A program made the translations under genes and the position numbers. The notes beneath the pieces were generated by a model. That model was given only the letters and a program-made list of their open reading frames with translations. It did no database searches and had not been told where the DNA came from. This document shows positions 2,872 through 29,342 of a stretch of DNA of 34,768 nt, one piece after another. Source of the DNA: Chloroflexi bacterium HGW-Chloroflexi-9 (GTDB lineage: Bacteria > Chloroflexota > Dehalococcoidia > UBA2979); NCBI GenBank assembly GCA_002840675.1, contig PHBR01000008.1, forward strand, positions 1-34,768, in the 5' to 3' direction. The first letter of the stretch is position 1. Every line of letters starts with the position of its first letter.

Positions 2872-3357
2872 ATGAGCAGCGACCCCGTCCCCGGGCGGCC
2901 TCGACGGATGGCGGAGTACGGCGTGCCCGTGTCCCTGGAGGGCCTGCTGCCGTGGTCCTGGGCGGCGGAACGTCTCGCCGGCAGCCGGAACTACTGGTTG
3001 AGCACGGCCGACGCCCGAGGCGTCCCGCATGCGGCTCCCGTCTGGGGCGTATGGCTGGACGGCACCTTCCTGTTCGACACCGGCCTCGACTCCCGCAAGG
3101 CGCGCAACCTCGCCGGGCAGCCGCGCGTGGTCGTGACCACGGAGCAGGCGAGCGAGCCGGTGATGCTGCACGGCCTCGCCGAGCGGGTGGGCGACGACGA
3201 GGCGATCGAGTCCCACCTCGCGGCGTACGAGGCAAAGTACGGCTCGCGGCCACCAGGGACGCGCTTCCTGGTGCGCCCGGTCGTTGCATTCGGGTTCATC
3301 GAGGATGCAGCGCACTTTGGAGCCAGCGCGACACGCTGGGAGTGGCCGCAGGCGTAG
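2872..3357 (+). CDS. Pyridoxamine 5'-phosphate oxidase (PPOX)-fold family protein
   Basis: This is a 161-residue cytoplasmic protein of the split-barrel flavin/F420-binding fold. Telling segments are [22 protein letters not shown], typical of strands 1-2 of PPOX proteins (here written without its last residues: ASRNYWLST then [12 protein letters not shown]), followed by [14 protein letters not shown] and PRVVVTTEQ. Members bind FMN or F420 and reduce or oxidise small molecules, but neither cofactor nor substrate can be read from the sequence. The ATG at 2872 gives MSSDPVPG. An in-frame ATG at 2863 adds three residues, and one at 2908 would give MAEYGVPV, which is also plausible. The reading frame is open further upstream to 2677 but that part overlaps uvrA and looks non-coding. 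It ends 10 bases from the convergent gene at 3368. Confidence 0.88.
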
Positions 3358-4017: not shown

Positions 4018-7000
4018 CTAGTGGTGCGCCTGGATGTTGCCGCCGGTGAGCTTGCCGCTCACCTGCGAGATGACCTGGCCGCTGGCGTCCTTGATCACCA
4101 CGGAGATGGTGTCGTTGCGCCCCGGCTCACCCTGGTCGGTGATGGTCAGTTCCACCGTGCCCGTTGCCCCGTTGCCGAGGCGGCCCGTGCCCGTGAGCAC
4201 CATCGTGTCGATGGACGCCGGGCGGGGTTTCGGGTTGATCGACGGGTTGTCCGAGCAGGTCACCGAAGTGATGGTCTGCAGGTGGAACTTCACGCCGCTG
4301 TCGTGGTCGTTGAACTGGAAGTTGTTCCCGGAGGCGTTGCAGCGCAGCGACAGCCCGAAGGTATAGCGGTCACCGCTCACCACGATGTTGCCGCCGCCCG
4401 TCATCCGCCCCGTGCCGGTCCCGCCGGAGGTGGGCGCACCGATGGTGACCGTCACCGTGGCCGTGTCCGTCGCGCCGGAGGAGTCCCGGACCGTGTAGGT
4501 GAAGGTCACCGTACCGGTCTGGTTCTTCTTCGGCGTGAACTTCACGTTCCCACCGGTGATCGAGACGGTCCCCTTCGAGTTGCCCGAACCGGGCTGGGTG
4601 ACGGAGATGACCGTCAGGCCCGTGCCGGAATCGTTGGCCCGTACGTCGATCGTGACGGCGGTGTTCTTCGGCGTGACCGCCGCGTCATCCACCGCCTCGA
4701 GGGCGGACTGCACCGTCACCGTCACGGTTGCCGTGTCGGTCGCCCCGGAGGCGTCCGTCACGGTGTAGGTGAAGGTGGCCGTCCCGGAGAAGCCCGGGGC
4801 GGGGGTGTAGGTGATCGTGGTGCCGTCGGTGGTCGCGGTGCCGCTCGTCGGGGTGCTCACGGCGGTCACCGTGAGTTCGCCCACCGTGGCGGTGTCGTTC
4901 GCCAGCACGTTCACCGTCACCGGCGTGCCACCGGGGGTGGTAGCGGTGTCGTTGGACGCCTCGACCACACACGGGATGCCTATGACCTGGAAGACCACGT
5001 CGTTGTAGTCCTGGTCACCGCCGCCGTAGACGTCCTCGAAGCCGACCACGTACAGGACGCTGCCGGAGCCAGCGTTGATCTGGGCGTGGACGAGGTTGTC
5101 CGGGTTGGCCGAGGCAGTGCCCGTCACGAAGGTGTAACCGGTCTGCTGGACCTTGATCCCGAAGTCAAGCGTGGTACCGGCGGCGTAGAAGCCGACCGTG
5201 ACCTGCTGGTTGACGTTCTGGTTGGTCACGCCCAGGTAGCGCGGGCCATCCGGGCCCATCAGCCAGATCTGGCTCGTGTAGCCAGCGCTGAAGGCCATCA
5301 CCTTGATCGCGATGCAGGCGTCGGCCGCGACGAAGATGCGCGGGGCGCCCGCCACGGTGATGGTCACCGTGATCGTGGCCGTCCCGCCGTTGCCGTCCGT
5401 GACGGTGACGTCGAAGGCGTCCTCGCCATCGAAGCCGGCGTTCGGGGTGTACGTGACCGAGCCGCCGCTGACCGCCACCGTGCCGTTGGCCGGCGTGGTG
5501 GTGGAATCAATCGCCAGCGGGTCGCCGTCCGGGTCGGACACGCCGGCCAGGATGTCTACGGTCACCGGCGCGTCCGCGCCCGTGGTGGTGCCGATGTCGT
5601 TGCCCTCGGGGGCGCCGTTCACGGTCACCGTGACGGTGATAGTGAGCGAACCGCCGTTTTCGTCCTCCACCGTGACGGTGAAGGAGTCGGTGCCGGAGAA
5701 GCCCGGGGCCGGGGTGTAGATGACGTTGCCACCGCTGATGGTGACGGAGCCGTTGGCACCCTGCGTGACCGAGGTGATCGCCAGGTCGTCGCCATCCGGG
5801 TCGGTCACACCGCCCAGGATGTCGATGGTGACCGGGGTCTCAGCCTGCGTAGACGCGGAGGCGTCCGCGCCGACCGGCGCGCCGTTCACGGTGACCGTGA
5901 CGGTGATGGTGAGCGTGCCGCCGTTCTCGTCCTCCACCGTGACGGTGAAGGTGTCGGTGCCGGAGAAGCCCGGGGCCGGGGTGTAGACGACCTCGCCACC
6001 GGAGATGGTGACGGAGCCGTTGGCACCCTGCGTGACGGAGTCGATGGTCACAGCGTCGCCGTCCGGGTCGGTAATGCCGGCCAGGATGTCGATGGTGACC
6101 GGGGTCCCGGCCTGCGTGGACGCGTTGACATCTGTGCCGACCGGGTTGCCGTTGACCAGCACGGAGACCGTGATGGTCAAGGTGCCGCCGTTGCCGTCCG
6201 TGACGGTCACGTCAAACGTGTCCGTCCCGGAGAAGCCGGTGACCGGGGTGTAGGTCACCTCGGTGCCGTCAGTCGTGACGGAGCCGCTGGCGCCCTGCGT
6301 GACCGCGTCCACCACCAAGTCGTCGCCGTCGGGGTCGCTGACCCCGGCGAGGACGTCGATGGTGATCGGGGTCTCGGCCTGCGTCACGGTCTCGATGTCG
6401 TCGCCGACCGGGGCCGCGTTCGTGACCTGGACGGTCACGGTCAGGACCAGTTCGGAGCCGTGCTCGTCCACCACGGTCACCGTGAAGGTGTCCGTGCCGG
6501 AGAAGCCCGGGGCCGGCGTGTAGATGACGTTGCCGCCGCTGATGGTGACGGTGCCGTTGGCGCCCTGAGTCACGGCGTCGATGGTGACGTCGTCACCCTC
6601 CGGGTCGGTGACCCCGTCGAGGACATCGATCGTCACCGGCGTACCGGCGACCGTCGAAGCCTCGATGTCGTCGCCGACCGGGGCCTGGTTGGTCACGTCC
6701 ACCGTGACATTGAGGGTCAGTGCGCCGCCGTGGATGTCGACGACGGTCGCCGTGAAGGAGTCGGTGCCGGAGAAGCCCGGAGCCGGGGTGTAGACGACCT
6801 CGCCGCCGCTGATGGTGACGGAGCCGTTCGCACCCTGGGTGACCGCGTCGATGGTGACGACGTCACCATCCGGGTCGGTCACGCCGCCGAGCACGTCGAT
6901 GAACACGGCCGTGCCCGCCGCCGTCGTCGCGTCGATGTCGACGCCCTCGGGAGCGTTGTTCGGGCGGAACTCGACCGTGGTCGAGCCCAGGAGGACCGAG

Positions 7001-10000
7001 CCGCGGTAGATCGAAACGGTGACGATGCCCGGCGTGCTGTTTGCCGTCAGCGCGACGGTGCCGCCCTGGCTCGTGTAGAGGACGCCGCTGCCGAGGTTGG
7101 CCTCGATGCTGGCGGCTGGCCCGGTAGTCACCCACGACGCGATCAGTGAGTCGACGCCGTAGGAGATCCCACCGGTCAGCGTGCCGCCGGTCGTGACGAT
7201 GGTGATCACGTCCGGTGCGCCGGTGATGGCCGGGACGGAGAACGTGATGTCGATCGCGGTCTCGTTCTGACCGGTCGGGACGTCGCTCGCGACGATCGAC
7301 GTCCACTGCGGGGTCAGGACGACGCCGACGAGCGCCAGCGTGCCGGTGCCGGCATCGATGCCCGCCTCGACCTCGAGGTCACCGGAGACGGAGCCGAAGG
7401 TGACGGCCGGCCCGGTGTTGCCACCGGTGATGGTGAAGCCGCTGCCGGAGGGAATCGCCTCGGCCAGGGTGAAGGTCACCGTGGTGCCGTCGATCACGAC
7501 CGCGGACGGCGGTGCGCCAATGCCCGGGGTCGCCTGGATGAACCAGTCGGACGGTGAGGGTGCGCCGCTGAAGGTCGTGCCGGCCGGGAAGGTGACCGCG
7601 ATGGTCCCGCCCACGGGCACGCCGTTGTTGGCAGGGGACTGGGTCACGCTCACGAGCGGCGTGCCCATCGGGACCGTCGCCCCGGCGAGGAACGTGATGG
7701 TGGCCACGTCCAGGACCGCCGGGACGCCCTGGATGGTGACCGTCACGGTCAGGACCAGGATGCCGCCGAAGTCGTCCACGATCGTCACGGTGAACGTGTC
7801 CACGCCCTGGAACGCGGTGTCCGGGATGTACACGACGTTGTTGCCGGAGATGTAGGCGATGCCGTTCGCCGGGTCGGAGATGCTGGCCAGGAAGACGGAG
7901 TCGCCGTCCGGGTCAGTGACGCCCGCGAGGACTTCGATGCTGATGCTCTGGTCCGGCCCGGTCGACACCTCGATGTCGTCACCCTCGGGCAGGCCGTTCG
8001 GGAGCACCGTCACGGAGACGGTCGCCGTCGCGACGTTCCCGAGGCCGTCCTCCACCGTGTAGGTGAAGGTGTCGGTGCCGGTGAAGCCCAGCTCCGGGAT
8101 GTAGACGACCTGCAAGCCGTTGATGATCGCCTGCCCGTTGGAGGGCTGTGTCACGGACACGATGGCGAGGCTGCCGCCGACCGGTGCGGTGTCGTTGTCG
8201 AGGACGTTGACCTCGACCTGGCTACCCGCGCGGGTCTCCGGGGCGTCGTCGCCAGCCACGATCGTCGCCTCGACCGTCACGGTCACGGTACCGGTAGCGA
8301 TGCCGCCTCGGCCGTCGGAGACGGTGTAGGTGAAGGTGTCGGTGCCCAGGAAGTTGAGCGCCGGGGTGTACGTGAAGGTGTTGCCAGAGAGCGTCACCGT
8401 GCCGTTGGACGGCTGGGTGAAGGCGACGTTCGGCACCGCCGCGCTGATTGCGGTGTGGATGTCGCCGAGTTCCGTCGCGCCCAGGGCGACCGGGAACACG
8501 GTCAACTGCCGCAGCTCGTCACCTGCGCCACCAGCGCCGTAGAGCGTCTGGCCCAGTGTGATGAGGTCGGTGCCGGTGTCCAGGTCAGTCCACAGCGTGG
8601 CGGTGGTGCCGGCGACGCCGTCCACCCACGCGGTCAGGCCGCGCGCGCCGTCGTACACGAGCGCGATCGTGTGCTCGAGCCCGTCACCGAGGTTCGTCCC
8701 CACGGGCAGGTCCAGCACCACGTCGTTGTTCCACCCGGCGAAGACCAGCTTGTCGTTGCCGAGGCTCGTCCGCGCGATGGAGAACTGCGCGAAGTTCGTC
8801 AGGTTGGTGCCGTAGCCGAACAGGCCGATGTCACCGGGGCCTGCGAAGTTCGCCTTGAAGCGGAACACCACCGTGCGCGGGTCGTTCCCCGTCGGCAGGC
8901 TGCCCACGCCAGAGCGCGAGACGGACCCACCGAAGAAGGAGATCCCGGTCCCGCCGTCGCAGTCACCGGTGGTGGCGCCAGCCGCCGCGCCACCCGAGAG
9001 GGTGCCGGTCAGGCCGTTGCCGGAGAAGTCGAAGAGCGTGCTGCCGCCGGACGGCAGGCACTCCCAGAACAGGCTGGGGCCGAGCGCCACGATCGTCGGG
9101 CGGGCAGCGGAGCCGCTACCTACGTGGAGCGAGTCGAAGTCAGGATCGGAGTCGTTCATCAATACGGCGATGTCGACGGGCTGGTTCTGGCCCGTCGTCG
9201 CCGCGTCGTCCACGGCCACCGGGGGCGCGTTGTCAGGCGTGACGTTGACCATGACGGTCGCGGTGCGCGTCTGGCCGTTCTCGTCCTCGATCGTGTAGGT
9301 GAACGAGTCCGAGCCCTGGTAGAGCGGGCTCGGGGTGTACGTGACCATCGAGCCGTCGGTCGTGACGGTGCCGTGGGCGCCGTCCGTGACCGCGGTGATG
9401 GTGATGCCAGCGCCCGTGTCGTTCGTCAGCACGTCGATCGTGGTGGCCCCGCTCACGAGCGCCAGGTCGTCCACCGCGATGACCGGGCCCATGACCGTGA
9501 GGGTCACGAGCGCGACCGAGGCGCCGCCCTGGCCGTCCGAGACGGAGTAGAGGAACTGGTCCGTACCGCTGTAGCCGGGGTCCGGGGTGTAGGTGATCGT
9601 CAGGAAGTCCGGCGACAGCGAGAGGGATCCGAACTGCGGCTTCGTGAAGGCGCGGTTGAGCACGGCGGCCTCAATGGCCGCGTGGATCAGGTAGGCGTCC
9701 GCCTCATTCACCGCGTCCGGGAAGATCGCGAACTGGCGCATCTCGTCGCCGGCGCCCTGCCAGCCCCACGGGGAGTGGCCGAGCATGACCGTGTCGTCCA
9801 CGGTTTGCAGCGGGATGCCCAGCGTGCCGGGCGCGCTCTGCACGCCGTCCACATACGCGTAGACCGTCACGTTCCCGTCGTACACGAACATGATCGTGTG
9901 CTCGAGGCCGTCGGCGATATTGAAGCCGGGCTGCAGGTCGAAGTGCAGGTCGTTCGCCCACGAGGTGAAGATCAGCTTGTCGTTGCCCAGGATGGTGCGG

Positions 10001-13000
10001 GACACGGTGAACTGCGCGAACGGCGTGCCGTTCAGGCCGTAGCCGAACAGCGGGATGTCAGCCGGGAGCGGCTGGTTCGCCTTGTAGCGCACCAGGGCAG
10101 CGCGCGGCTGCGCCCCCGTCGGCAGGTCCGGGTTGGTCAGCGAGATCACGCCGGTCGGCCCCGGGTTGAAGACCATCGACGAGCCGTTGTCGCAGTCACC
10201 GGTGTAGGTGCCGGGCGTGATGCCAGCGCCGACGATGCCGGTGCGGCCGTTACCGCTCGTGTCGAACTGCGTGGCCGAGCCGCCGAACGGCAGGCACTCC
10301 CAGTGGAGCAGCGGGCCCTGGCGCAGGATCGCCGCGCGGGCCAGCGCACCGGGGGAGATGAACAGCGTGCCACCGTCCGCGTCCGAGTCGTTGTCCAGCA
10401 CCGGGATGGTGACGGAGGTCTCGAATGGTGCGATCGCCGTGTCGTCCACCGCGACCGGGAAGATGTTGTCCGGCGCAACCAGCACCGTGACCGTGCCCGT
10501 CGAGGTGTTCAGGTCCGCGTTGATGATCGTGTAGGTGAACGTGTCGGTGCCGACGAAGTTCGGGTTGCTGGTGTAGGTCACCGTCAGCCCGTCCGTGGTG
10601 ACCACGCCGTTGGCGGGCTGCGTCACGGAGTCGATCGCGATGCCGTCGCCGGCGTCGTTCGCGAGCACGTCGATGGTGACCGGGTCGTTGGTCAGCGTGT
10701 TCGCGCCATCGTCCACCGCGAGCAGGCCGGCGGTCACCGTGACGGTCACGGTCGCTGCGGCGATGCCACCACGACCGTCAGAGACGGAGTACGAGAAGGT
10801 GTCGACGCCGGTGAAGCCCGGATTGGCGGTGTAGGTGACGGCGTTGCCGGTGAGGGTGACGACGCCGTTGGCCGGCTGGGTGAAGGCCTGGAAGGCGGCA
10901 GCCGCGTCGATGGCCTGGTGGAGGCCCTCGATCTGCGGGGCGCTGAGGGCGCCTGCGTACACCGCGAACTGGCGCAGTTCGTCGCCGAAGCCGGCGGCTC
11001 CGTAAACGGTCTGCCCGAGGTGGACGACCCCATCGACGGTGTCGAGCGGAATGAAGAGGTTGGCGGTGGGGCCGGCGACGCCATCGACGTACGCGGTCAG
11101 CCCGGTCGCCCCGTCGTAAACGAGGACGAGCGTGTGCTCGATGCCGTCGCCGAGGTTGGTGCCGGCGGGCAGGTCGATGACGGCGTCGTTGCCCCACGCG
11201 GCGAAGTAGAGCTTGTCGTTGCCGAGGCCGGTGCGGGCGATGGAGAACTGGCCGTTGCCGACGGCGTTGGTGCCGGCGCCGAAGAGCCCGACATCACCAC
11301 CGCCGACGTTCGCCTTGAAGCGCAGCAGGAAGGAGCGCGGCGAGGAGCCGCTCGGGAGGCCCGGGCTGGTGAGGGTGACGGAGTCGCCGGGGAAGAACGC
11401 GAGGCTGGTGCCGCCGTCGCAGTCGCCGGTGGCCGCGCCCGCGGTCACGCCGGTGACGACGCCGTCACGGCCGTTGCCGCTGAGGTCGGTGAGGGTCGCT
11501 GCACCGCCGGCCGGGAGGCACTCCCAGTGGAGGACGGGCCCGAGGCCGTCGATCGCCGCGCGGGCGAGTGCGCCCGGGGAGATCGAGACCGGGTCGCCGT
11601 CCGGATCGGTGTCGTTCGCGACCACGTCGATCAGGACCGGGGTCACCCCAACGGTCGATGCAACGTCATCCACCGCGACGGGCGGCTGGTTCGTTACCAC
11701 CGCGGCCTGGACATCCACGGTCACGGTCGCGCCGGCGATGGCGCCGAACGCGTCGGAGATCGAGTACGTGAACGAGTCGGTGCCGGTGAAGCCGAGGTTC
11801 GGCGTGTAGAGCAGGTTGTTACCGTCCAGCGTCACCACGCCGTTCGCCGGCTGCGTGAAGGACTGGTACGCGGCGGCCGCGCTGACCGCGGAGTGCAGGC
11901 TGGCGATCACAGATGCAGACAGCGCCGTCGGGAAGACGGCGAACTGGCGCATCTCGTCACCCGCGCCGGCGCCGCCGTACAGCGTCTGGCCGAGCATGAC
12001 CTGGCCGTCGAGGGTGCCGAGGGGGATGAAGAGGTTGGCGGTGGGACCGGCGACGCCGTCCACGTACGCAGTCAGGCCGGTCGCCCCGTCGTAGACCACG
12101 ACGAGTGTGTGCTCGATGCCGTCGCCGAGGTTCGTCCCTGCCGGCAGTTCAATGACGGTGTCGTTGCCCCACGCGGCGAAGTAGAGCCTGTCGTTGCCGA
12201 GCCCGGTGCGCGAGATCGAGAACTGGCCGTTGCCGACGCCGTTGGTGCCGAGGCCGAACAGGCCCACGTCACCGGGGCCAGCGAAGTTGCCCTTGAACCT
12301 GACCATGATCGAGCGCGGCGCGGAGCCGCTCGGCAGACCGGGGACGGACGTGACGACGCTCGCGTTGGCCCACGACCAGAACGTCATGGCGGTGCCGCCG
12401 TCGCAGTCGCCGGTGGTGCTGCCGGCCTCGAGGCCGGTCGCGATGCCGTCCCGGCCGTTGCCGCTGCGGTCCACGATCACGCCCGCGCCACCAGCGGGGA
12501 GGCACTCCCACTGCAGCGACGGGGAGAGGTCCGAGATCGCGGCGCGCGCGAGGGCGCCGGGGGAGATCGAGATCGCGTGGCCGTCCGGGTCGAAGTCGTT
12601 CGACAGGACGTTGATGCTGACGGGGGTTCCGCTGGTCGTGCTCGCGAAGTCGTTGGTGGCGAGGGGCGGGTTGTTCGGGAGGGCGCTGACAGTGACGGTG
12701 ACCGTGCCGATGGAGACCAGGAGCTCCTCGTCCTGCACTTCGTACGTGAAGACGTCATCGCCGACGAAGCCGGGGTCGGAGGTGTACACGACGGTGTCAC
12801 CGTCGATCACGGCTGAGCCGTTCGCGGGGTCGCTGACGCTGATGAGCGTGAGCACACCCAGTTCCGGGTCGGCGTCGTTCGCCAGGACCGGGATGATGAC
12901 CGGGACACCAGAGGTGGTGGACGCCGTGTCAGGGATCGCGACGGCCTCGGCCGCACCAGCCGGTGACGCGTGGACCGCGAGCACCGAAATGGTGAAGACG

Positions 13001-13050
13001 AGCGCCGTGGTGAACCACGACAGCGCCTGTCGCGCAGGGAGGTGCGTCAT
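4018..13050 (-). CDS. Giant secreted multidomain protein: cadherin-like repeats with inserted LamG-like domains, DUF4114
   Basis: From the ATG at 13050 the protein is about 3010 residues. An upstream in-frame TTG (13116) exists, but the ATG places a classic signal peptide first (MTHLPARQALSWFTTALVF..., cleavage near ASPAGA-AEA). Residues 34-1770 hold nine Big_9/cadherin-like repeats of about 90 residues. Four of these are interrupted by LamG-like domains at about 163-395, 491-721, 897-1135 and 1311-1542. A unique stretch at about 1773-2031 follows, then six near-identical repeats (2032-2570), a DUF4114 domain (2571-2695, with GFEDVYGGGDQDYNDVV), two more repeats and a C-terminal beta domain (about 2885-3010, RMTGGGNIVV to GGNIQAHH) that resembles the post-COAP-type domain. 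Acidic DPDGD motifs suggest calcium binding. I see no sortase signal or membrane anchor. Likely an adhesin or surface-layer/matrix protein; ligand unknown. Confidence 0.92.
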   Translation of the reverse strand: MTHLPARQALSWFTTALVFTISVLAVHASPAGAAEAVAIPDTASTTSGVPVIIPVLANDADPELGVLTLISVSDPANGSAVIDGDTVVYTSDPGFVGDDVFTYEVQDEELLVSIGTVTVTVSALPNNPPLATNDFASTTSGTPVSINVLSNDFDPDGHAISISPGALARAAISDLSPSLQWECLPAGGAGVIVDRSGNGRDGIATGLEAGSTTGDCDGGTAMTFWSWANASVVTSVPGLPSGSAPRSIMVRFKGNFAGPGDVGLFGLGTNGVGNGQFSISRTGLGNDRLYFAAWGNDTVIELPAGTNLGDGIEHTLVVVYDGATGLTAYVDGVAGPTANLFIPLGTLDGQVMLGQTLYGGAGAGDEMRQFAVFPTALSASVIASLHSAVSAAAAYQSFTQPANGVVTLDGNNLLYTPNLGFTGTDSFTYSISDAFGAIAGATVTVDVQAAVVTNQPPVAVDDVASTVGVTPVLIDVVANDTDPDGDPVSISPGALARAAIDGLGPVLHWECLPAGGAATLTDLSGNGRDGVVTGVTAGAATGDCDGGTSLAFFPGDSVTLTSPGLPSGSSPRSFLLRFKANVGGGDVGLFGAGTNAVGNGQFSIARTGLGNDKLYFAAWGNDAVIDLPAGTNLGDGIEHTLVLVYDGATGLTAYVDGVAGPTANLFIPLDTVDGVVHLGQTVYGAAGFGDELRQFAVYAGALSAPQIEGLHQAIDAAAAFQAFTQPANGVVTLTGNAVTYTANPGFTGVDTFSYSVSDGRGGIAAATVTVTVTAGLLAVDDGANTLTNDPVTIDVLANDAGDGIAIDSVTQPANGVVTTDGLTVTYTSNPNFVGTDTFTYTIINADLNTSTGTVTVLVAPDNIFPVAVDDTAIAPFETSVTIPVLDNDSDADGGTLFISPGALARAAILRQGPLLHWECLPFGGSATQFDTSGNGRTGIVGAGITPGTYTGDCDNGSSMVFNPGPTGVISLTNPDLPTGAQPRAALVRYKANQPLPADIPLFGYGLNGTPFAQFTVSRTILGNDKLIFTSWANDLHFDLQPGFNIADGLEHTIMFVYDGNVTVYAYVDGVQSAPGTLGIPLQTVDDTVMLGHSPWGWQGAGDEMRQFAIFPDAVNEADAYLIHAAIEAAVLNRAFTKPQFGSLSLSPDFLTITYTPDPGYSGTDQFLYSVSDGQGGASVALVTLTVMGPVIAVDDLALVSGATTIDVLTNDTGAGITITAVTDGAHGTVTTDGSMVTYTPSPLYQGSDSFTYTIEDENGQTRTATVMVNVTPDNAPPVAVDDAATTGQNQPVDIAVLMNDSDPDFDSLHVGSGSAARPTIVALGPSLFWECLPSGGSTLFDFSGNGLTGTLSGGAAAGATTGDCDGGTGISFFGGSVSRSGVGSLPTGNDPRTVVFRFKANFAGPGDIGLFGYGTNLTNFAQFSIARTSLGNDKLVFAGWNNDVVLDLPVGTNLGDGLEHTIALVYDGARGLTAWVDGVAGTTATLWTDLDTGTDLITLGQTLYGAGGAGDELRQLTVFPVALGATELGDIHTAISAAVPNVAFTQPSNGTVTLSGNTFTYTPALNFLGTDTFTYTVSDGRGGIATGTVTVTVEATIVAGDDAPETRAGSQVEVNVLDNDTAPVGGSLAIVSVTQPSNGQAIINGLQVVYIPELGFTGTDTFTYTVEDGLGNVATATVSVTVLPNGLPEGDDIEVSTGPDQSISIEVLAGVTDPDGDSVFLASISDPANGIAYISGNNVVYIPDTAFQGVDTFTVTIVDDFGGILVLTVTVTIQGVPAVLDVATITFLAGATVPMGTPLVSVTQSPANNGVPVGGTIAVTFPAGTTFSGAPSPSDWFIQATPGIGAPPSAVVIDGTTVTFTLAEAIPSGSGFTITGGNTGPAVTFGSVSGDLEVEAGIDAGTGTLALVGVVLTPQWTSIVASDVPTGQNETAIDITFSVPAITGAPDVITIVTTGGTLTGGISYGVDSLIASWVTTGPAASIEANLGSGVLYTSQGGTVALTANSTPGIVTVSIYRGSVLLGSTTVEFRPNNAPEGVDIDATTAAGTAVFIDVLGGVTDPDGDVVTIDAVTQGANGSVTISGGEVVYTPAPGFSGTDSFTATVVDIHGGALTLNVTVDVTNQAPVGDDIEASTVAGTPVTIDVLDGVTDPEGDDVTIDAVTQGANGTVTISGGNVIYTPAPGFSGTDTFTVTVVDEHGSELVLTVTVQVTNAAPVGDDIETVTQAETPITIDVLAGVSDPDGDDLVVDAVTQGASGSVTTDGTEVTYTPVTGFSGTDTFDVTVTDGNGGTLTITVSVLVNGNPVGTDVNASTQAGTPVTIDILAGITDPDGDAVTIDSVTQGANGSVTISGGEVVYTPAPGFSGTDTFTVTVEDENGGTLTITVTVTVNGAPVGADASASTQAETPVTIDILGGVTDPDGDDLAITSVTQGANGSVTISGGNVIYTPAPGFSGTDSFTVTVEDENGGSLTITVTVTVNGAPEGNDIGTTTGADAPVTVDILAGVSDPDGDPLAIDSTTTPANGTVAVSGGSVTYTPNAGFDGEDAFDVTVTDGNGGTATITVTITVAGAPRIFVAADACIAIKVMAFSAGYTSQIWLMGPDGPRYLGVTNQNVNQQVTVGFYAAGTTLDFGIKVQQTGYTFVTGTASANPDNLVHAQINAGSGSVLYVVGFEDVYGGGDQDYNDVVFQVIGIPCVVEASNDTATTPGGTPVTVNVLANDTATVGELTVTAVSTPTSGTATTDGTTITYTPAPGFSGTATFTYTVTDASGATDTATVTVTVQSALEAVDDAAVTPKNTAVTIDVRANDSGTGLTVISVTQPGSGNSKGTVSITGGNVKFTPKKNQTGTVTFTYTVRDSSGATDTATVTVTIGAPTSGGTGTGRMTGGGNIVVSGDRYTFGLSLRCNASGNNFQFNDHDSGVKFHLQTITSVTCSDNPSINPKPRPASIDTMVLTGTGRLGNGATGTVELTITDQGEPGRNDTISVVIKDASGQVISQVSGKLTGGNIQAHH
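5346..6955 (-). repeat. Six tandem, near-identical coding repeats of about 268 bp
   Basis: Six consecutive cadherin-like units of about 89 residues share the core VTIDVLAGVTDPDGD, VTQGANGSVTI, YTPAPGFSGTDTFTVTV and NGGTLTITVTV. Units 4 and 5 (roughly 5610-6150) are the closest at DNA level. The last unit before the DUF4114 domain has drifted most. Repeats this similar could recombine and change the length of the protein between strains, and they are a risk for assembly collapse. Confidence 0.9.
8425..12563 (-). repeat. Four copies of a LamG-like domain, each inserted in a cadherin-like repeat
   Basis: Copies lie at about 11866-12563, 10890-11580, 9648-10360 and 8425-9120, each about 232 residues. 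Each starts after ISPG with A-ARAAI or a variant, carries WECLP, SGNG, GDCDGG or GDCDNG, RTxLGNDKL, GDGxEHT, YDGxxGxTAYVDGV and GDEMRQFAVFP-like motifs, and ends just before the resumed repeat FTQPANG or a variant. Two cysteines (WECLP and GDCD) are kept in all four copies and may form a disulfide. Confidence 0.88.
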
Positions 13051-13541
13051 AGAATCGCCCGATCGATTAGACCCCAGCCAGTTGCCTGATATGAAGTTAC
13101 CGGTCGGCACGGGCAAGGGGGGCTCCTACCCCGTCCTCCACCTTCACTCTCAACCTCTCCTATACCGTCTTTACCGTTCCTTCACTGAGAAATAGAGTCC
13201 GTCGCTGAGCAGCGGTCAGCGCTGCCCGGTTCACTGTCTTTAGAAGACATAACGAATCAAGAAGCGGATCCCGCCCGCGTGCCTTCGTGGCGCGTTCGAG
13301 GGCGGTTCGGCGCGCGCCGTTCGACCTCCCGTGAGGGTGTTTCGGCGGCCCAGACCGGCGACGTTCCGCACCCCGCCGGGTGTCACTGCGAGCGGTGAGT
13401 GACGCACGAGGTAGACCGCACATGACGGCGACCGCAACGCGATTCGCATGTGATTGGCACACGGTCGGCGCGCGAATGCGGCACATACCGTGCGCGGCGC
13501 GCTAGAGTCCCGTCAGCCCTCGGACTGCTCCTGGAGTGCAC
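13051..13541. other. Intergenic region between the giant gene and livG, with short repeats
   Basis: This region carries no convincing gene; the open frames in it have no family features. The part 13140-13260 is visibly richer in A+T than the surroundings. It contains a tandem nonamer pair CTATACCGT-CTTTACCGT (13160-13177), the octamer CCTTCACT twice (13141-13148 and 13179-13186), a third TTCACT at 13230-13235 and a small palindrome GTCTT-TAG-AAGAC (13236-13248). These lie 90-200 bases upstream of the giant gene's ATG on its side and are candidate regulatory sites. The GC-rich part 13261-13541 must hold the livG promoter, but I find no good hexamer pair there. Confidence 0.5.
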
Positions 13542-21078: not shown

Positions 21079-21747
21079 CACGAAGCGGGGACGGGGAAGG
21101 ATGCTTCCATCGCTACGGCTGAGCGAACCCGTGCGCAACCAGCCCCACGCCGCGTTTGGTACGGGGTAACGAAGGTCGGCATCGACCTCGTTCTGGCCAT
21201 CTTGTCCCTCGCGGCGCTCTCGCCAGTCCTGCTGATCGCGGCCCTCGCCGTCCGCTTCACCTCGCCTGGCCCCATCCTGTTCCGCCACCAGCGTGTTGGA
21301 CGGAATGGTGTCCCGTTCGTCGTCTACAAGTTCCGGACGATGCGAACCGATACGGGTCTGACCCCCGACGCTATCGCCTCCTTCCGCGAGAACTACAAGT
21401 TGGCGGGCGACCCGCGCATCACCCCGGTCGGCCGCTGGCTGCGCCGGACCAGCCTGGACGAAGCGCCGCAACTCCTGAACGTCCTCAGCGGCACCATGTC
21501 GATCGTTGGGCCCCGCCCTGTGACACCAGTGGAGCTGCATGAGAAGTACGGTGAGCACGCCGACGAACTGGTTTCGGTGAAGCCGGGCCTCACGGGGCTC
21601 TGGCAGGTCTCGGGACGGTCATCCCTGACCTATCGGCAGCGCGTTGATCTGGACCTCCAGTACGTGCGTGAGCGCGGGCTGTGGACGGACCTCAAGATCA
21701 TCGCCCGCACGCCGCTCGCGGTGCTGCTCATGCGCGGGGCCGAGTAG
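21070..21747 (+). CDS. Polyprenyl-phosphate sugar-1-phosphate transferase (initiating glycosyltransferase)
   Basis: A 225-residue member of the bacterial sugar transferase (WcaJ/PglC-like, Bac_transf) family. It moves a sugar-1-phosphate from a nucleotide sugar to undecaprenyl phosphate at the membrane, the first step in building a surface glycan. Motifs: the membrane re-entrant helix [87 protein letters not shown] and DLQYV. All catalytic-core motifs are present. The start is uncertain: TTG at 21070 is the only canonical in-frame start, yet it lies inside a promoter-like sequence. An ATG with GGGGAAGG at 21101 is out of frame, and its frame stops at 21169. The conserved domain begins near 21170, so the core call is not affected. 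Confidence 0.9.
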
Positions 21748-21766
21748 CGCCCGCCCGCGGGACACC

Positions 21767-24181
21767 GTGGCCCATTCACCACTCACGCCCATCCCGCTCC
21801 GCTGGCGGATCGCCACCCTGCTGGCGGTCGCCCTCGCCGTCCTCGTCTTCGATTTCGGGCGTCGTTCGGTGACCGGGTACCGCGAGCTCAGCGCCGCCGT
21901 CGACCGCATCGAGGCGGCGCGTGCGACGCTGGAGCCGATCGTCCGCTTCGACGCATCACGCTGGCCGGCCGCGGAAGCGATCGCCGTCGCTCACGCTGAC
22001 TTGGAGGAAGCAAACCGCCGCTTCGAGCGTGCGGACCGCCGGCTCAGCTACGTGCCGGGGGTTGCCCGGCTGTTCGCATGGGTGCCACGCTGGGGAGACA
22101 GCCTGGGACACGCGCAGGACGCGCTCCGCGCCGGGCGGACGGTCGCCGGCAGCACCGACCGGCTGGTGCGCCGCCTGGACGCCCTGGTCGCGGGTGAGGG
22201 CCGCATCGCCGACCGTGCCTATCAGACCTTCGTGATCGACGCGGCGCCCCTGCTCGCGGAACTCGAGACGCTCGCGGCGTTGCGCGGCGACCTCGAACGC
22301 CTCGCGGCGGTCGACTGGCACCCACCGTTTGGGCGTGTGGGCCGCGCGCTCCAGCTCGCGTTGGCGGAGCTCGAACGGGTGGAGGAGGCCCGCGACATCG
22401 CGACAGGACTCCGTGATGGGCTGCCGGTGCTGCTCGGGTACGACCAGCCGCGGACGCTGCTGCTCCTGGGCCAGAACGATCACGAGGTGCGTCCGACCGG
22501 CGGGTTCATCGGCACCGTCGGACTCCTCACCCTGGATCAGGGGCGCGTGACCTCGAGGCGGTTCGGGTCCTCGTACGACTTCGATGCGCCGACACGTGAT
22601 GGACTGCGGACGCCGCCCCTCGATCTCTCGTCGTCGCTGGGCATTGGCGAGTGGCACATCCGCGACGCCAACTGGTCTCCGGACTTCCGCGTATCGGGCG
22701 AGACCGCCCGTCGCTTCCTGGCGGAGGACCTGGGCGTCGAGGCCGACAGCGTGGTCGCGGTGGATTCGCACTTCGTCGCGCTGCTCCTCGGCGCCCTCGG
22801 CCCGGTGGAGGTGGATGGGTACGACGAGCCGCTCACCCAGGACAGCTGGTTCGTGCAGGCAGAGAACAGCATCTACGCCCTGGAGTTCGGCGAGACGGCC
22901 GCCCCCGCGGACGTTGGCGAGGGCGGCGTGAACCTCGTCGCAAACCCGGGCTTCGAGGCGTCGCTGGCCGGATGGGACGCGGCCGGTGACGCCGAGCTCG
23001 ATCTGCTCGAGGCGTTGGAGGACGCGGCCTACGGCAGCGGTGCGCTGCGGGTCGATGCACACAGCGCGGGAGGCGGCGCGCGTTACACCGGCGCAGCGAA
23101 TGCTCGCGCGGGCCAGGCCTACACCGCGTCCGTCAGTGTGCGTGCGGCGGACGCCGCCTCGGTCGGTGCCGAGGTACAGCTGCTGTTCGAGGCGCGCGGC
23201 GGTGAATACGAGCAGGCCTCCACGACCATCCGCCTCTCCGATCAGTGGCAGCGGTTCTCCGTGACGACCACCTGGGCCAACGAGGGCCACACCGGCTGGG
23301 GGCTCACGGTCCGGGACGCCATCGGCCAGTCGCTCGTCGTGGAGATGGACGGCGTGCAGGTGGAGGCCGGCCCGGAGGCAACGCCCTACGAGGAGACGGA
23401 TCGCACGAGCACCGAGCAGGCTGGAGGGCGCGGGGTGGCGCGGCAGGCCTACCTCAGCCCGGTGCTCGACACGCTGCTCGAACGCGCGGAACTAGCATCC
23501 GGCGACACCGTGCCGGCGCTGATCGGCGCCCTCAGCCAGGCCGTCCGGGCACGCAACCTCCAACTGTATTCGCCACACGGATCGGTCGCCGCGCTGGCGA
23601 GACAGCTTGAGGTCGACGGTGCGATCGAAGCGCCGGCGGACGGCGATCAGCTGGTCGTGGTGGACGCGAACGTCTCGTACAGCAAACTCCAGCCCGCCAT
23701 CACCCGCTCCATCACGTACCTCCTGGGGCAGGACGGCCACGTGGACATTCTGATCCGCTGGCGGAACGACCTGCCCACCTTCGACGGCGGGCGGTACGCG
23801 CGGCTGGGACAGGACGGCATGATCTGGGACCCGGTCGCCTACCGCATGAACACTGCGCCCGGGACGTTCGCGACCTACACCCGGCTCATCCTCCGTGGCG
23901 ATGCGGAGACGGTGAGGACGACCGGATTCGAGCAGCGCGGCCTCTTCCCTGGCGAGGACGCCCTCACCTTTGCTGGGCGGGTGATCGTCCCACCTGGCGA
24001 GGAAGCCTTCGTGGCGGTGAGCTACGAATTGCCGGACCGCCCGCAGACTCTGCGCCTCTGGAAGCAGGGAGGCTTCGCTTCCACCACCGTGAAGGTGCTG
24101 GTGAACCAGGGCGGGACGCAGCACGTCGCGTTCGAGGGCCTGCTCCTGGAGGACACCGTGGTCGATCTGAAGGCGCCCTGA
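21767..24181 (+). CDS. DUF4012 protein with an inserted carbohydrate-binding-like module
   Basis: About 804 residues from GTG 21767, 19 bases after the sugar transferase; the longer open frame upstream overlaps that gene and is a shadow. One N-terminal membrane segment (about 11-28) anchors an extracytoplasmic protein. The DUF4012 core includes LLGQNDHEVRPTGGFIGTVG (about 229-248), SYDFD, WHIRDANWSPDF and VVAVDSHFVALLLGALGPVEV. At about 388-551 a separate beta module interrupts it: LVANPGFEASLAGW, WQRFSVTTTWANEGHTGWGL and VEMDGVQVEAG are typical of family 4/9-like carbohydrate-binding modules. The DUF4012 part then resumes (RQAYLSPVLDTLLERAEL...). DUF4012 proteins often lie in polysaccharide loci but have no proven function. 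The module is related to that in the last gene of the window. Confidence 0.88.
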   Translation: MAHSPLTPIPLRWRIATLLAVALAVLVFDFGRRSVTGYRELSAAVDRIEAARATLEPIVRFDASRWPAAEAIAVAHADLEEANRRFERADRRLSYVPGVARLFAWVPRWGDSLGHAQDALRAGRTVAGSTDRLVRRLDALVAGEGRIADRAYQTFVIDAAPLLAELETLAALRGDLERLAAVDWHPPFGRVGRALQLALAELERVEEARDIATGLRDGLPVLLGYDQPRTLLLLGQNDHEVRPTGGFIGTVGLLTLDQGRVTSRRFGSSYDFDAPTRDGLRTPPLDLSSSLGIGEWHIRDANWSPDFRVSGETARRFLAEDLGVEADSVVAVDSHFVALLLGALGPVEVDGYDEPLTQDSWFVQAENSIYALEFGETAAPADVGEGGVNLVANPGFEASLAGWDAAGDAELDLLEALEDAAYGSGALRVDAHSAGGGARYTGAANARAGQAYTASVSVRAADAASVGAEVQLLFEARGGEYEQASTTIRLSDQWQRFSVTTTWANEGHTGWGLTVRDAIGQSLVVEMDGVQVEAGPEATPYEETDRTSTEQAGGRGVARQAYLSPVLDTLLERAELASGDTVPALIGALSQAVRARNLQLYSPHGSVAALARQLEVDGAIEAPADGDQLVVVDANVSYSKLQPAITRSITYLLGQDGHVDILIRWRNDLPTFDGGRYARLGQDGMIWDPVAYRMNTAPGTFATYTRLILRGDAETVRTTGFEQRGLFPGEDALTFAGRVIVPPGEEAFVAVSYELPDRPQTLRLWKQGGFASTTVKVLVNQGGTQHVAFEGLLLEDTVVDLKAP

Positions 24182-24221: not shown

Positions 24222-24806
24222 ATGACGGCTGCGGAGACGCTCTTCAGCGCTGGACTTGCGGAGCATGCGGCTGTGCTGGAAGCCGTGCGCCGTGACCTCG
24301 GCGGCCCCTTCGAGCGGATGCTGGAGGCGTGGGTCATCGCCACCCGCGGTGGCGGCAAGATCATGTTCTGTGGCAACGGGGGCAGTGCGGCGGACGCGCA
24401 GCACCTCGCCACCGAACTTACCGTCCGCTACGTCTCGGATCGCCCGGCGATCGCCGCGCTGGCGCTGACCACGGACACCTCCGCGCTCACCGCGGTCGCG
24501 AACGACCACGGCTACGAGACGGTGTTCGCGCGCCAGGTGGAGGCGCTCGGCCGCCCGGGCGACGTCCTCGTCGCGATCTCCACCTCCGGCCGCAGCCCGA
24601 ACATCCTGCTGGCGCTACGCCGCGCGGGTGAACTGGGCATCGTGCCTGCCGCCCTCACCGGTGGCGATGGCGGCGGGGTCGTGGGCCTCGCCGACCCGGT
24701 GATCGTCGTGCCCTCTCGCACCACCGCGCGCATTCAGGAGATGCACATCACGCTGGGGCAACTCCTCTGCTCGGGGCTGGAGCAAGCCCTCGGGTACGCT
24801 TCGTGA
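24222..24806 (+). CDS. gmhA: GmhA-like sedoheptulose-7-phosphate isomerase (SIS domain)
   Basis: A 194-residue SIS-fold enzyme. GmhA converts D-sedoheptulose 7-phosphate to D-glycero-D-manno-heptose 7-phosphate, the first step of heptose nucleotide synthesis. It aligns without gaps to E. coli GmhA as I recall it: FCGNGGSAADAQH places the metal/catalytic H61 and E65 at the same numbers, STSGRS is the phosphate site, and RIQEMH gives Q172 and H175. At position 180, where E. coli has the metal-binding histidine H180, this protein has Gln. DiaA-like SIS proteins also lack that histidine, so a changed role is possible, but the operon with hddA favours heptose synthesis. The next gene overlaps its stop by four bases. 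Confidence 0.88.
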   Translation: MTAAETLFSAGLAEHAAVLEAVRRDLGGPFERMLEAWVIATRGGGKIMFCGNGGSAADAQHLATELTVRYVSDRPAIAALALTTDTSALTAVANDHGYETVFARQVEALGRPGDVLVAISTSGRSPNILLALRRAGELGIVPAALTGGDGGGVVGLADPVIVVPSRTTARIQEMHITLGQLLCSGLEQALGYAS

Positions 24807-26056
24807 CCGTCTGCCGAGTGTGCTCCGGAGACTCGCTCCGGCTGGTGATCGACCTCGGCGACCAGCCACATTGCAACTCGCTCATCGGTCCCGAGGCGCT
24901 TGCTGAGCGCGAGCCGTACTACCCCCTGCGGCTCTTCTTCTGCGAGGACTGCACCACCGTTCAGATCGACCACACGGTGCCGAAGGAGACGATGTTCTCC
25001 GAGTACCTGTACGTCTCCGGCACCACCGAGACCCTCCGTGCCCACTTCCGCGACACCGCGGAGCGGTTGACCGCGCGCCTCGGGCTGCAGTCCGGCGACC
25101 TCGTCGTGGACATCGGCAGCAACGATGGCACCTGGCTCGCGGAGTTCCAGGCGCTGGGGCTGCGCGGGCTCGGCGTCGAGCCGGCACGAAACATCGCGGC
25201 GCTCGCGAACGACGCCGGTATTCGCACGCTCAACCGCTTCTTCAACGCCGAGGTCGCCACGGCGATCCTCGACGAGGGCACGCCGCCGAAACTGGTCACA
25301 GCGGCCGGCGTCTTCTTCCACCTGGAGGAACTGCACAGCGCCACGGAGGGTGTGGCCGCGCTCTGTCGCGCGGGCGCGGTGTTCTGCGTGCAGGCGATCT
25401 ACCTCCGGGAGATGCTCCGCCAGACCGCGTTCGACAACATCTATCACGAACACCTCACCTACTGGACGCTGCGCTCGTTCAGCGTGTTGCTGGAGCAGTA
25501 CGGGCTGGAAGTGATCTCCGCCAACGTGGTGCCGATCCACGGTGGCACCATGGAGCTGCTCATTGCGGAGCGCGGGCGCTTCCCGGTCGACGCCTCGGTG
25601 GAAGCGATACGAACGCGAGAGACCGAGGAACGGCTGGGCGAGGTTGAGACGTACCTGGCGTTCGCCGAACGCGTCCGCGCGATCGGCCGGGACCTCCTCG
25701 CGATCCTGGAGTCGTACCGCGCGGCTGGGAAAACGGTGTACGCCTTCGGCGCCCCGGCGAAGGGGGCGACGATGCTGAACTCGTTCGGCATCGACACTCG
25801 GTTGGTGGCGCTGGCGACCGAACGCAACCCGCTCAAGGTCGGCCACTGGATCCCCGGTGCACGCATCCCAATCGTGCAGGAGGGGGCGGTGCCGGAGCCG
25901 GACGCGTACCTCGTGCTGCCGTGGAACTTCCTGGGCGAGTTCCTCCGTCGCAACCAGGCCTACGTGGAGGGCGGGGGCGACTTCATCGTGCCGATCCCCC
26001 GACCGAGGGTGATCACGGCGGCCAATATCGACGAGGAACTGGCGGGCATAAAATAG
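24803..26056 (+). CDS. Sugar C-methyltransferase-like SAM-dependent enzyme
   Basis: A 417-residue three-part methyltransferase of the NovU/TylC3/TcaB9 type. The N-terminal zinc-binding part has Cys4, Cys7, Cys47 and Cys50. The SAM-binding Rossmann core has VVDIGSNDGTWL followed by GLRGLGVEPARN. The motif IYHEHLTYWTL carries the Glu-His pair known to be catalytic in this family. IHGGTMELLI and a C-terminal nucleotide-binding-like region with VYAFGAPAKGATMLN complete the family pattern. Known members methylate a carbon of a nucleotide-linked keto-sugar. GTG 24803 overlaps the gmhA stop (GTGA), so the two are coupled. Lying between gmhA and hddA, it may make a C-methylated sugar or heptose; the actual substrate is unknown. 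Confidence 0.9.
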   Translation: MTVCRVCSGDSLRLVIDLGDQPHCNSLIGPEALAEREPYYPLRLFFCEDCTTVQIDHTVPKETMFSEYLYVSGTTETLRAHFRDTAERLTARLGLQSGDLVVDIGSNDGTWLAEFQALGLRGLGVEPARNIAALANDAGIRTLNRFFNAEVATAILDEGTPPKLVTAAGVFFHLEELHSATEGVAALCRAGAVFCVQAIYLREMLRQTAFDNIYHEHLTYWTLRSFSVLLEQYGLEVISANVVPIHGGTMELLIAERGRFPVDASVEAIRTRETEERLGEVETYLAFAERVRAIGRDLLAILESYRAAGKTVYAFGAPAKGATMLNSFGIDTRLVALATERNPLKVGHWIPGARIPIVQEGAVPEPDAYLVLPWNFLGEFLRRNQAYVEGGGDFIVPIPRPRVITAANIDEELAGIK

Positions 26057-26087
26057 CCGCGAGGCTCGGGGTGGACAGGCGGCCTGG

Positions 26088-27083
26088 ATGTTGATGACCT
26101 CGCGGACACCGCTGCGCGTCAGCCTCTTTGGCGGGGGGACGGACTACCCAGGCTGGTATCAGCGCGAGCGCGGCGCCGTCATCGGCTTCACCATCGACAA
26201 GCACATCTACATCTCCGCGCTCCGCCTCTCCTCCTTCGTGGACTACCGCTACCGCATCTCCTACTCGAAGCTCGAGGCGACCCACCGGATCGAGGAGATC
26301 CAGCACCCGGTTATCCGCGCCGTCCTGCTCCGCGAGCACTTTGACGACCCGATCGACTGCTCGATCCAGGCCGATCTACCCGCGAACACCGGCCTGGGGA
26401 CGTCCTCCGCGTTCACCGTCGGCTTCCTGAACCTCGTCGCGGCGATGAAGGACGCGCCCCGCACGAGGATGGAACTCGCCCGGCTCGCGATCGAGGTTGA
26501 GCAGCAGGATCTGCAGGAGCGTGTCGGCGTCCAGGATCAGTTGCACGCCACCTTCGGCGGCCTCAACCACTTCGAGTTCGAAGGCGACCAGGTCCGCGTC
26601 CTCACCCCGCATGTCCGAGGCGAAACGCTGGATCTGCTCGCGGACTGGATGCTCCTCGTCTACACCGGCACCAAGCGCCACGCCTCCGCAACACTCGGGG
26701 AGCAGTTGGAGAACACCGCCGCGCAGCGCGTGGATGTTGAGTTGCGAGAGATGCTGGCGTTGGTGGATGAGGCGCATCGCCTGTTCGAGGGCTGTCACGG
26801 CGATGATCTGCCGCGCGAACTTAGCCGCCTGCTCGCGGAGGGGTGGCGCCTGAAGCGTCGCCTCTCCTCGCAGGTCACGAACTCCGACATCGACACGCTG
26901 TACGGGGCGTGCCTGGGCGCGGGCGCGCTCTCCGGGAAGCTGTGCGGCGCCGGCGGCGGCGGCTTCCTGCTGATGATCGTCCCGCCGGAGCGCCGCGCCA
27001 CCTTCATCGAGACCGTCGGCCGGGAACGGTGCATTCCGTTCCGCATCGAGCACCACGGTTCAACGATCCTGCGCGGGGGCTGA
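26088..27083 (+). CDS. hddA: HddA-like D-glycero-D-manno-heptose 7-phosphate kinase (GHMP kinase)
   Basis: A 331-residue GHMP-family kinase. HddA phosphorylates C1 of heptose 7-phosphate in the GDP-heptose route. Motifs: RTPLRVSLFGGGTDYPGWY at the N-terminus, the ATP-binding loop LPANTGLGTSSAFTVG (about 98-113), VGVQDQLHATFGGLN and the C-terminal KLCGAGGGGFLLMI. These match the HddA/heptose kinase group rather than galactokinase or mevalonate kinase. The ATG at 26088 is taken; an in-frame ATG at 26094 is an alternative. It follows the methyltransferase by 31 bases and the next gene starts 3 bases after its stop. The later enzymes GmhB and HddC are not in the window. Confidence 0.9.
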   Translation: MLMTSRTPLRVSLFGGGTDYPGWYQRERGAVIGFTIDKHIYISALRLSSFVDYRYRISYSKLEATHRIEEIQHPVIRAVLLREHFDDPIDCSIQADLPANTGLGTSSAFTVGFLNLVAAMKDAPRTRMELARLAIEVEQQDLQERVGVQDQLHATFGGLNHFEFEGDQVRVLTPHVRGETLDLLADWMLLVYTGTKRHASATLGEQLENTAAQRVDVELREMLALVDEAHRLFEGCHGDDLPRELSRLLAEGWRLKRRLSSQVTNSDIDTLYGACLGAGALSGKLCGAGGGGFLLMIVPPERRATFIETVGRERCIPFRIEHHGSTILRGG

Positions 27084-27086
27084 CGG

Positions 27087-28193
27087 GTGCGCCGTCCCCG
27101 GCTGCTCCTCGATCTCACCAGGTATCACCCAGCCGACGGCGGTTTCGCGACAGCGGTGCATCACCTGCTTGCGTCGACGTCGACATTCGACGACATCGAT
27201 GTGGTCGCCGTGGCCCTTGATCAGTTCGCGGATGCCCTGCGGCAGCACGGGACGCACGTGGCCTCCATCCACGCACCAATGAAGGCTCGTAGCTATGTGG
27301 GGCTACTCGCCATGCCCTTGCTGGCGCGCCGGTTTGGTGCTGATGCGCTGCACGCCGAGATAGGCGCGTTGCCGTACGGAATGGGTATCCGGAGCTCCGT
27401 AACGGCCCACGACCTCCACTTCCTATCGTCCGCAGACCAGCCACCGGGGGGACTATCCGGTCTGAACTACCGCCTGTACTGGCGGCACCTATACGTGTCA
27501 TCGCTGAAGCGGGCCACCTTGATCAAGGCGATCTCGCGCGCGACGGCCACGGCGGTCACCCGGGCGATCGGCGACAGTGATCGGATACGCCTGGCATATC
27601 CGCGCGTCGACCCTGGGGACCCAACGACGGGAGAAGGAACCCCGGTTGAAGGTCGGGAACTCAATCTTCTGTTCCTGGGAAGCGTGGTCCCGCGCCGCAA
27701 TCTGCCGTTCTTGCTGGACGCGCTGCGCCTCGTCAAGCGACCCTGGCGTCTGAACATCGTCGGTCAGGTCTGGTGGGGGGCCAGAGAACTCGGCACCGTC
27801 GACCCCCGGGTAACTTTCCACGGCTTCGTGCCAGACCCTGTCCGCGACGGGATGCTAAGGCAGGCCGACGTGCTCATATGCCCATCCTGGGACGAGGGAT
27901 TCGGCTACCCGGTTGCCGAGGCGATGGCGTACGGGACGTTCGTGCTCGCGTCGGATATTCCGGTGTTTCGAGAGTACGTCCCCGCCGAGTGCCGGTTCTC
28001 GCTTAACTCCCCCGTCGATCTGGCCGCGAAGATTGAGTCTCTGGACGCGACCTCCATGGCCGATCTCAAGTCCTCGCTTATCGACGCGATTCGGCCCTAC
28101 TCCCGTGAGCGCCACGCCGAGGCACACCATGCGTTCTTCAGGGAGCTCCTGGGTCTTGCCTCGCCTCAGTCGTTCGCTCCACCGCCTGGCTGA
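27087..28193 (+). CDS. Glycosyltransferase family 4 protein
   Basis: A 368-residue GT-B fold glycosyltransferase that would add a sugar to a growing lipid-linked glycan on the cytoplasmic side. The C-terminal half shows the GT4 pattern: LLFLGSVVPRRNLPFLLDAL, WRLNIVGQ, VTFHGFVPD and the nucleotide-sugar site DVLICPSWDEGFGYPVAEAMAYG with the conserved E-x7-E spacing, then VLASDIPVFREY. The N-terminal acceptor half contains SSVTAHDLHFL. It starts at GTG 27087, three bases after hddA. Sampled 60-base lines here are 63-65 percent GC by hand count, lower than several neighbours, which hints at a separate origin. Its last 56 bases overlap the end of the convergent gene at 28138. Confidence 0.9.
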   Translation: MRRPRLLLDLTRYHPADGGFATAVHHLLASTSTFDDIDVVAVALDQFADALRQHGTHVASIHAPMKARSYVGLLAMPLLARRFGADALHAEIGALPYGMGIRSSVTAHDLHFLSSADQPPGGLSGLNYRLYWRHLYVSSLKRATLIKAISRATATAVTRAIGDSDRIRLAYPRVDPGDPTTGEGTPVEGRELNLLFLGSVVPRRNLPFLLDALRLVKRPWRLNIVGQVWWGARELGTVDPRVTFHGFVPDPVRDGMLRQADVLICPSWDEGFGYPVAEAMAYGTFVLASDIPVFREYVPAECRFSLNSPVDLAAKIESLDATSMADLKSSLIDAIRPYSRERHAEAHHAFFRELLGLASPQSFAPPPG

Positions 28194-29256: not shown

Positions 29257-29306
29257 GCGACGCGTCCCCGCGGCGTATCTGGGGTGAATTCCAGGACGCG
29301 CATTCG

Positions 29307-29312
29307 TATGAT
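29307..29312 (+). promoter_or_regulatory. Candidate -10 element upstream of the fkbM leader
   Basis: TATGAT matches TATAAT at five of six positions. The sequence at -35 (near 29284-29290) is poor. It lies in the divergent gap and would start transcription about 12 bases before the ribosome site at 29331. Confidence 0.35.
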
Positions 29313-29342
29313 GATGAGACCGCCGACGGTGAGGAGCACGCG

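Follow-up and report, generated by a model that had tools for sequence, protein, structure and literature searches.

Interrupted repeats in a large adhesin-like protein

In this work, we describe a gene for a large secreted adhesin-like protein on the minus strand of a 34,768-nucleotide stretch of DNA (hereafter, the window; contig PHBR01000008.1 of assembly GCA_002840675.1) from Chloroflexi bacterium HGW-Chloroflexi-9. The gene occupies window positions 13050-4018 and encodes 3010 residues, among which four Big_9 repeats (immunoglobulin (Ig)/cadherin-like) are interrupted at one shared point by inserts of 231-235 residues. The interrupted repeats are called hosts here, and their LamG-like inserts guests. 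Together, the guests span bases 12564-8425, where the original prediction, made from the sequence alone, had placed four repeats with a LamG-like insert (8425-12563). A plus-strand reading of 8425-12563 gave a meaningless frame and was rejected. With its ATG at 13050 and its stop codon at 4018-4020, the gene has residue n beginning at base 13050-3(n-1). The open reading frame (ORF) containing it is 13116-4018 (-), and the ATG at 13050 is the likely start because in a sister species, described below, conservation starts at MTHLPARQ and is lost upstream of it.

The interruption falls at about position 39/40 of the 89 positions of the Big_9 profile. In a genome-wide Big_9 search, the N-terminal half (N-half) of host 1 (residues 126-162, bases 12565-12675) covers profile positions 1-39 with 32.2 bits, and its C-terminal half (C-half; 397-452, 11695-11862) positions 33-88 with 51.6 bits. 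Host 2 adjoins it with no plain repeat between; its N-half (453-490, 11581-11694) covers positions 1-39 (31.6 bits) and its C-half (722-777, 10720-10887) positions 36-89 (54.0 bits). The halves of host 3 (861-898, 10357-10470; 1134-1187, 9490-9651) cover positions 4-39 and 40-89 (23.4 and 46.0 bits), and those of host 4 (1272-1310, 9121-9237; 1543-1596, 8263-8424) positions 1-42 and 39-89 (31.0 and 61.8 bits). Chance is excluded by the low E-values (2e-4 to 4e-7 for N-halves, 1.9e-11 to 2.3e-16 for C-halves) together with the complementary profile ranges in all four copies.

The gathering cut-off of Big_9 (PF17963) is 23.6 bits, and the test applied was a match along the whole domain. Neither half is a Big_9 domain by itself. 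With the guest removed, hosts 1-4 match over the full length of Big_9 at 85.0, 87.7, 75.2, and 94.6 bits, while all plain repeats of the protein score 54-82 bits as single domains. The profile check proposed in the original prediction thus bore it out, both halves matching and the joined scores reaching 75-95 bits. A joined score by itself is no proof of pairing, as any N-half and any C-half might score; still, the halves are complementary in 4/4 copies, and the protein contains nothing else that could complete either of them.

Plain repeats had also been predicted between copies 2 and 3 and between copies 3 and 4, and they are found there: p23 (778-860, 10471-10719) matches Big_9 positions 6-88 at 53.6 bits (56.5 bits when tested alone for comparison with the joined hosts), and p34 (1188-1271, 9238-9489) positions 4-89 at 63.3 bits. 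The series is preceded by plain repeat h0 (36-125, 12676-12945; positions 4-89, 62.8 bits) and followed by h5 and h6 (1597-1777, 7720-8262; 72.4 and 55.5 bits), so that these five repeats score about 54-72 bits. None of the plain repeats is broken near position 39/40 like the split hosts; at the junction site they run uninterrupted: DPDGDAVTIDSVTQGANG. In copies 1 and 2, the host reads DPDGxxxSI up to the insert, the guest begins with SPGALARAAI, and the host resumes with FTQPANG. The corresponding motifs are DADGGTLFI, SPGALARAAI, and FTKPQFG in copy 3, and DPDFDSLHV, GSGSAARPTI, and FTQPSNG in copy 4. The junctions are therefore consistent to a single residue among the copies, in agreement with the predicted common insertion loop.

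The remainder of the protein is composed mainly of further repeats. Residues 1-35 (12946-13050; MTHLPARQALSWFTTALVFTISVLAVHASPAGAAE) read as a signal peptide, kept together with the ATG in the sister species, through which the 3010-residue protein is predicted to be secreted. The signal peptide is directly followed by Big_9 and, therefore, leaves no room for an N-terminal retention module with a LapG site, as judged by reading the sequence and with no dedicated search. Beyond h6 lies a region (1778-2031, 6958-7719) that is possibly further Ig-like, with only a Big_5 match of 13.8 bits, under the cut-off; it is conserved in the sister species (97.6% identical, with a low rate of synonymous substitution, dS, of 0.09). 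Six plain Big_9 stalk repeats, r1-r6 (2032-2568, 5347-6957), were found by the Big_9 search; the sister species has two fewer in this block (window 5347-6957 vs. L004). They are followed by a DUF4114 domain (2569-2696, 4963-5346; 44.6 bits, cut-off 27) with cysteines 2579 and 2694, two more plain Big_9 repeats found by the same search (2697-2871, 4438-4962), and a C-terminal tail with the stop codon (2872-3010, 4018-4437) that matches the post-COAP-1 domain NF041523 at 50.3 bits (cut-off 40). No sortase motif was seen on reading the C-terminus.

The LamG-like guests

Guests 1-3 match the Laminin_G_3 family (PF13385, gathering cut-off 27.6 bits) at 27-37 bits. Guest 1 (163-396, 11863-12564, 234 residues) falls just under the cut-off with 27.2 bits, while guest 2 (491-721, 10888-11580, 231 residues) and guest 3 (899-1133, 9652-10356, 235 residues) exceed it with 36.7 and 31.1 bits. 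Guest 4 (1311-1542, 8425-9120, 232 residues) is 50-59% identical to the other three, within an overall range of 49-74% among the guests. Nested LamG-like proteins can escape standard domain annotation, as in the Pfam scan of the whole protein, which returned no Laminin_G_3 match. Each guest contains exactly two cysteines, 33-34 residues apart (183 and 216, 511 and 544, 919 and 953, 1331 and 1364 in guests 1-4), which suggests a disulphide within each guest. In the whole protein, cysteines are confined to the guests and the two C-terminal domains, always as pairs, and the Ig repeats have none.

Two AlphaFold2 models of a host-plus-guest unit reached a mean predicted local distance difference test score (pLDDT) of 68.3 and 72.8 and a predicted template modelling score (pTM) of 0.67 and 0.71. 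The better-modelled regions include both parts of the host (block means of about 71-94 and 75-94 pLDDT), which may pair into one Ig sandwich. The guest is modelled as beta-rich, with a helix at 42-50 (SPGALARAA) before the jelly roll and another at 252-266 after it. Foldseek searches returned pentraxins, receptor-binding jelly rolls of clostridial toxins, and viral LamG proteins. The guests thus probably belong to the ConA-like/LamG/pentraxin fold class, and the predicted LamG-like identity is upheld by these models and by profile scores over or near the cut-off in three of the four copies. A relationship to the toxins was considered and rejected: the top matches in PDB were clostridial neurotoxin receptor-binding domains, but at roughly 8-16% identity, a jelly-roll likeness of the kind also seen with pentraxins. 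PDB chain 36gk_A ('RTX protein') matches the C-half of the host only.

Origin, distribution, and known counterparts

In a tree of 17 repeats, a branch supported at 88/87, below the starred level, separates split hosts 1-4 from the other repeats. For the pairs 1-2, 1-3, 1-4, 2-3, 2-4, and 3-4, guest identities are 74, 49, 57, 52, 59, and 50%, and host identities are 61, 43, 55, 50, 62, and 51%, so the two sets rank similarly. Both results agree with the original proposal that host and guest were duplicated as a block, and one insertion followed by such duplication is the simplest account.

The sister species is represented by a metagenome-assembled genome (MAG), Dehalococcoidia bacterium C15_concoct.bin.172 (JAUXUW01), which carries the four-copy series on two contigs ending inside copy 2. 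Guests, hosts, and plain repeats come in the same order in both genomes, and DNA identity along the locus is 92-95%. Guest orthologues are 95-100% identical between the species vs. 49-74% for paralogues; being far closer than the paralogues, they indicate that the series predates the split of the two species. That the repeats were mis-joined during metagenome assembly might be suspected, as the data come from MAGs and the sister assembly itself breaks inside copy 2; nevertheless, the identical order in a second genome and the same gap between orthologues and paralogues have already largely refuted an artefact, which we regard as barely credible. The ratio of nonsynonymous to synonymous substitution rates (dN/dS) between the species is 0.09, 0.02 (only 74 codons), 0.11, and 0.19 for guests 1-4, 0.21 for the split hosts, and 0.27 for the plain N-terminal repeats. 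These values place the guests under purifying selection, and the four nested units, all paralogues, make up a natural series in which the duplication and divergence of nested domains can be studied.

The homologue search suggested in the original prediction was successful in part: the sister species shares the insertion point in all four copies, but no other genome in the class and phylum samples does. All figures of rarity given here refer to samples within one phylum. The guest family occurs in only 2 of the 40 genomes searched as relatives, namely the window's own and the sister's; the sister MAG was the only match in a GTDB scan, and in the genus's third genome nothing matched the guest profile. 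Of 400 genomes sampled from the phylum, only the window's own matched the nested profile, and the junction profile was matched fully across guest and host only in the window. Laminin_G_3 itself is present in 93 of 393 genomes of the class, yet none of 30 such loci fetched had Big_9 flanks. Relatives of the guests in IMG/VR and in plasmids were not nested, nor did a guest-host junction query against plasmids and phages find nesting, with two Methylomonas plasmids matching the host C-half only. Weak half-matches at four other Chloroflexota loci (L050, L054, L055, and L059) were read as a different kind of repeat and not as an interrupted Big_9.

The original prediction had called such nesting rare, which is not supported in that form, since binding domains nested in the Ig-like repeats of adhesins have been described before. 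In Gram-negative RTX adhesins, crystal structures show Ig-like split domains from which a ligand-binding domain points sideways, with AhLap of Aeromonas hydrophila, FrhA of Vibrio cholerae, and MpIBP as examples (PMC12077191, PMC10865825). In the Chloroflexota protein, as in these adhesins, the sequence of an Ig-like rod repeat is interrupted by an inserted domain of binding type (here in four copies), the rest of the repeat follows it, and plain extender repeats surround the split one. There are also differences. A single strand precedes the insert in FrhA, whereas Big_9 is split near its middle (~39/89 positions); the guest is LamG-like, and four paralogous units probably arose by block duplication, in contrast to the unlike guests of RTX adhesins. 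The Chloroflexota protein has a signal peptide and no match to an RTX family in Pfam or NCBIfam searches, whereas an RTX adhesin would be expected to carry C-terminal RTX nonapeptide repeats and a type I secretion signal. A general rule for split domains is reportedly the subject of a paper by Graham et al. from 2024, doi 10.1002/prot.26689.

Two other groups share parts of this design. The long tandem Ig-like stalk is held in common with tandem-95 and CshA-type fibrillar adhesin repeat proteins (NF012211, TIGR04225), whose NCBIfam models are matched above their cut-offs (tand_rpt_95 at 661 bits, CshA-type repeat at 106 bits) but cover the stalk only, without the nested LamG. The Laminin_G_3 proteins of the class share the domain family but lack Big_9 halves alongside it in the fetched loci. 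Thus, the design is already known, and what is new is the LamG guest, the mid-domain split point, the homogeneous four-fold series, and the non-RTX Chloroflexota protein. With this protein, the split-domain principle reaches beyond the RTX adhesins of Gram-negative bacteria, into an uncultured Chloroflexota lineage and to a LamG-like guest.

Proposed function and neighbouring genes

We propose, with a probability of roughly 70%, that the four LamG-bearing split repeats make up the display region of a large secreted protein resembling fibrillar adhesins. Precedent for this proposal comes from split Ig-like domains in which a ligand-binding domain is projected (PMC12077191, PMC10865825). The protein is most likely a multivalent surface adhesin or glycan-binding fibre, where we infer both binding and surface location and where the LamG-like guests are the candidate adhesive domains. 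By analogy with the RTX precedent, the guests may project sideways from a rigid rod, as the original prediction had it. The chain would start the Ig sandwich by forming its first strands, exit via a short helix (SPGALARAAI), build the LamG jelly roll, come back via the LamG C-terminal helix, and finish the sandwich. The LamG domain, held by both ends, would then stick out from the axis of the stalk, its free end pointing away from it, and the plain repeats would serve as spacers. Four such units, located in the N-terminal half and probably distal to an attachment site close to the C-terminus, would give multivalent binding. The most likely putative ligands are glycans, whether of a surface, of a neighbouring cell, or of exopolysaccharide. 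More tentatively, the split Ig and LamG cassette, duplicating as a unit, might be a transferable 'display module' that evolved in Chloroflexota independently of RTX adhesins; if so, mid-domain insertion into cadherin-like repeats would be a general, repeatable route to side-pointing multivalent lectin combs.

Several points weigh against the display proposal. Guest 4 alone has no Pfam match, model confidence is low (pLDDT 35-56) over the first ~50 guest residues, no anchoring motif is recognisable in the protein sequence, LamG-like domains also serve structurally or as parts of enzymes, and half-to-half contacts are inferred and not directly observed. The last point would allow the flanks to be two truncated, separate, or unfolded pieces, without true nesting. 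This is very improbable given the complementary profile ranges in 4/4 copies, the ~38-residue N-halves modelled at roughly 80-94 pLDDT, and a host dN/dS of 0.21 that resembles that of plain repeats.

Rather than binding a ligand, the guests could also have a structural role in a sheath or S-layer-like protein, as spacers or as bulky arms at its side, with the LamG fold used for packing or protection. LamG-like domains are also common in other proteins of the class, where the Laminin_G_3 loci checked lie outside Big_9 proteins. We consider this role unlikely, because the guests are conserved at least as well as the surrounding repeats (dN/dS 0.02-0.19 vs. 0.21-0.27) and their design is the one found in split domains proven to bind ligands (PMC12077191). 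Less doubtful, though still clearly behind a cell-to-surface adhesin, is a secreted polysaccharide-binding or matrix scaffold that cross-links exopolysaccharide. It would suit the lack of a recognisable surface anchor, and some bacterial cadherin-like domains bind polysaccharides, at least according to the RapA2 and S. degradans work as cited in PMC12153261. Genes for surface polysaccharides (C-methyltransferase, GHMP kinase, glycosyltransferases, and a Wzy_C O-antigen ligase; window 24803-32750) lie 11-20 kb off on the same contig, but they are not adjacent, the link is positional only, and the long tandem stalk is in keeping with a fibrillar adhesin.

Among the neighbouring genes, a GGDEF-EAL (cyclic-di-GMP) gene is located just upstream of the adhesin gene in the sister species (L003:7356-9203). 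No such gene is present at the corresponding window positions 13301-13486, the best match elsewhere in the genome being 39% identical, and that it is connected with control of the adhesin is no more than a guess. At the contig end, an ORF at 33648-34766 (-) without a Pfam match reads as an extracellular protein with carbohydrate-binding-module-like and LamG-like parts. Finally, window 21644-24181 (+) encodes an 845-residue DUF4012 protein in which CBM_4_9 (430-544) comes right after the DUF4012 match and is followed by ~300 residues; it is possibly a second example, within the window, of a binding domain placed within a different protein.

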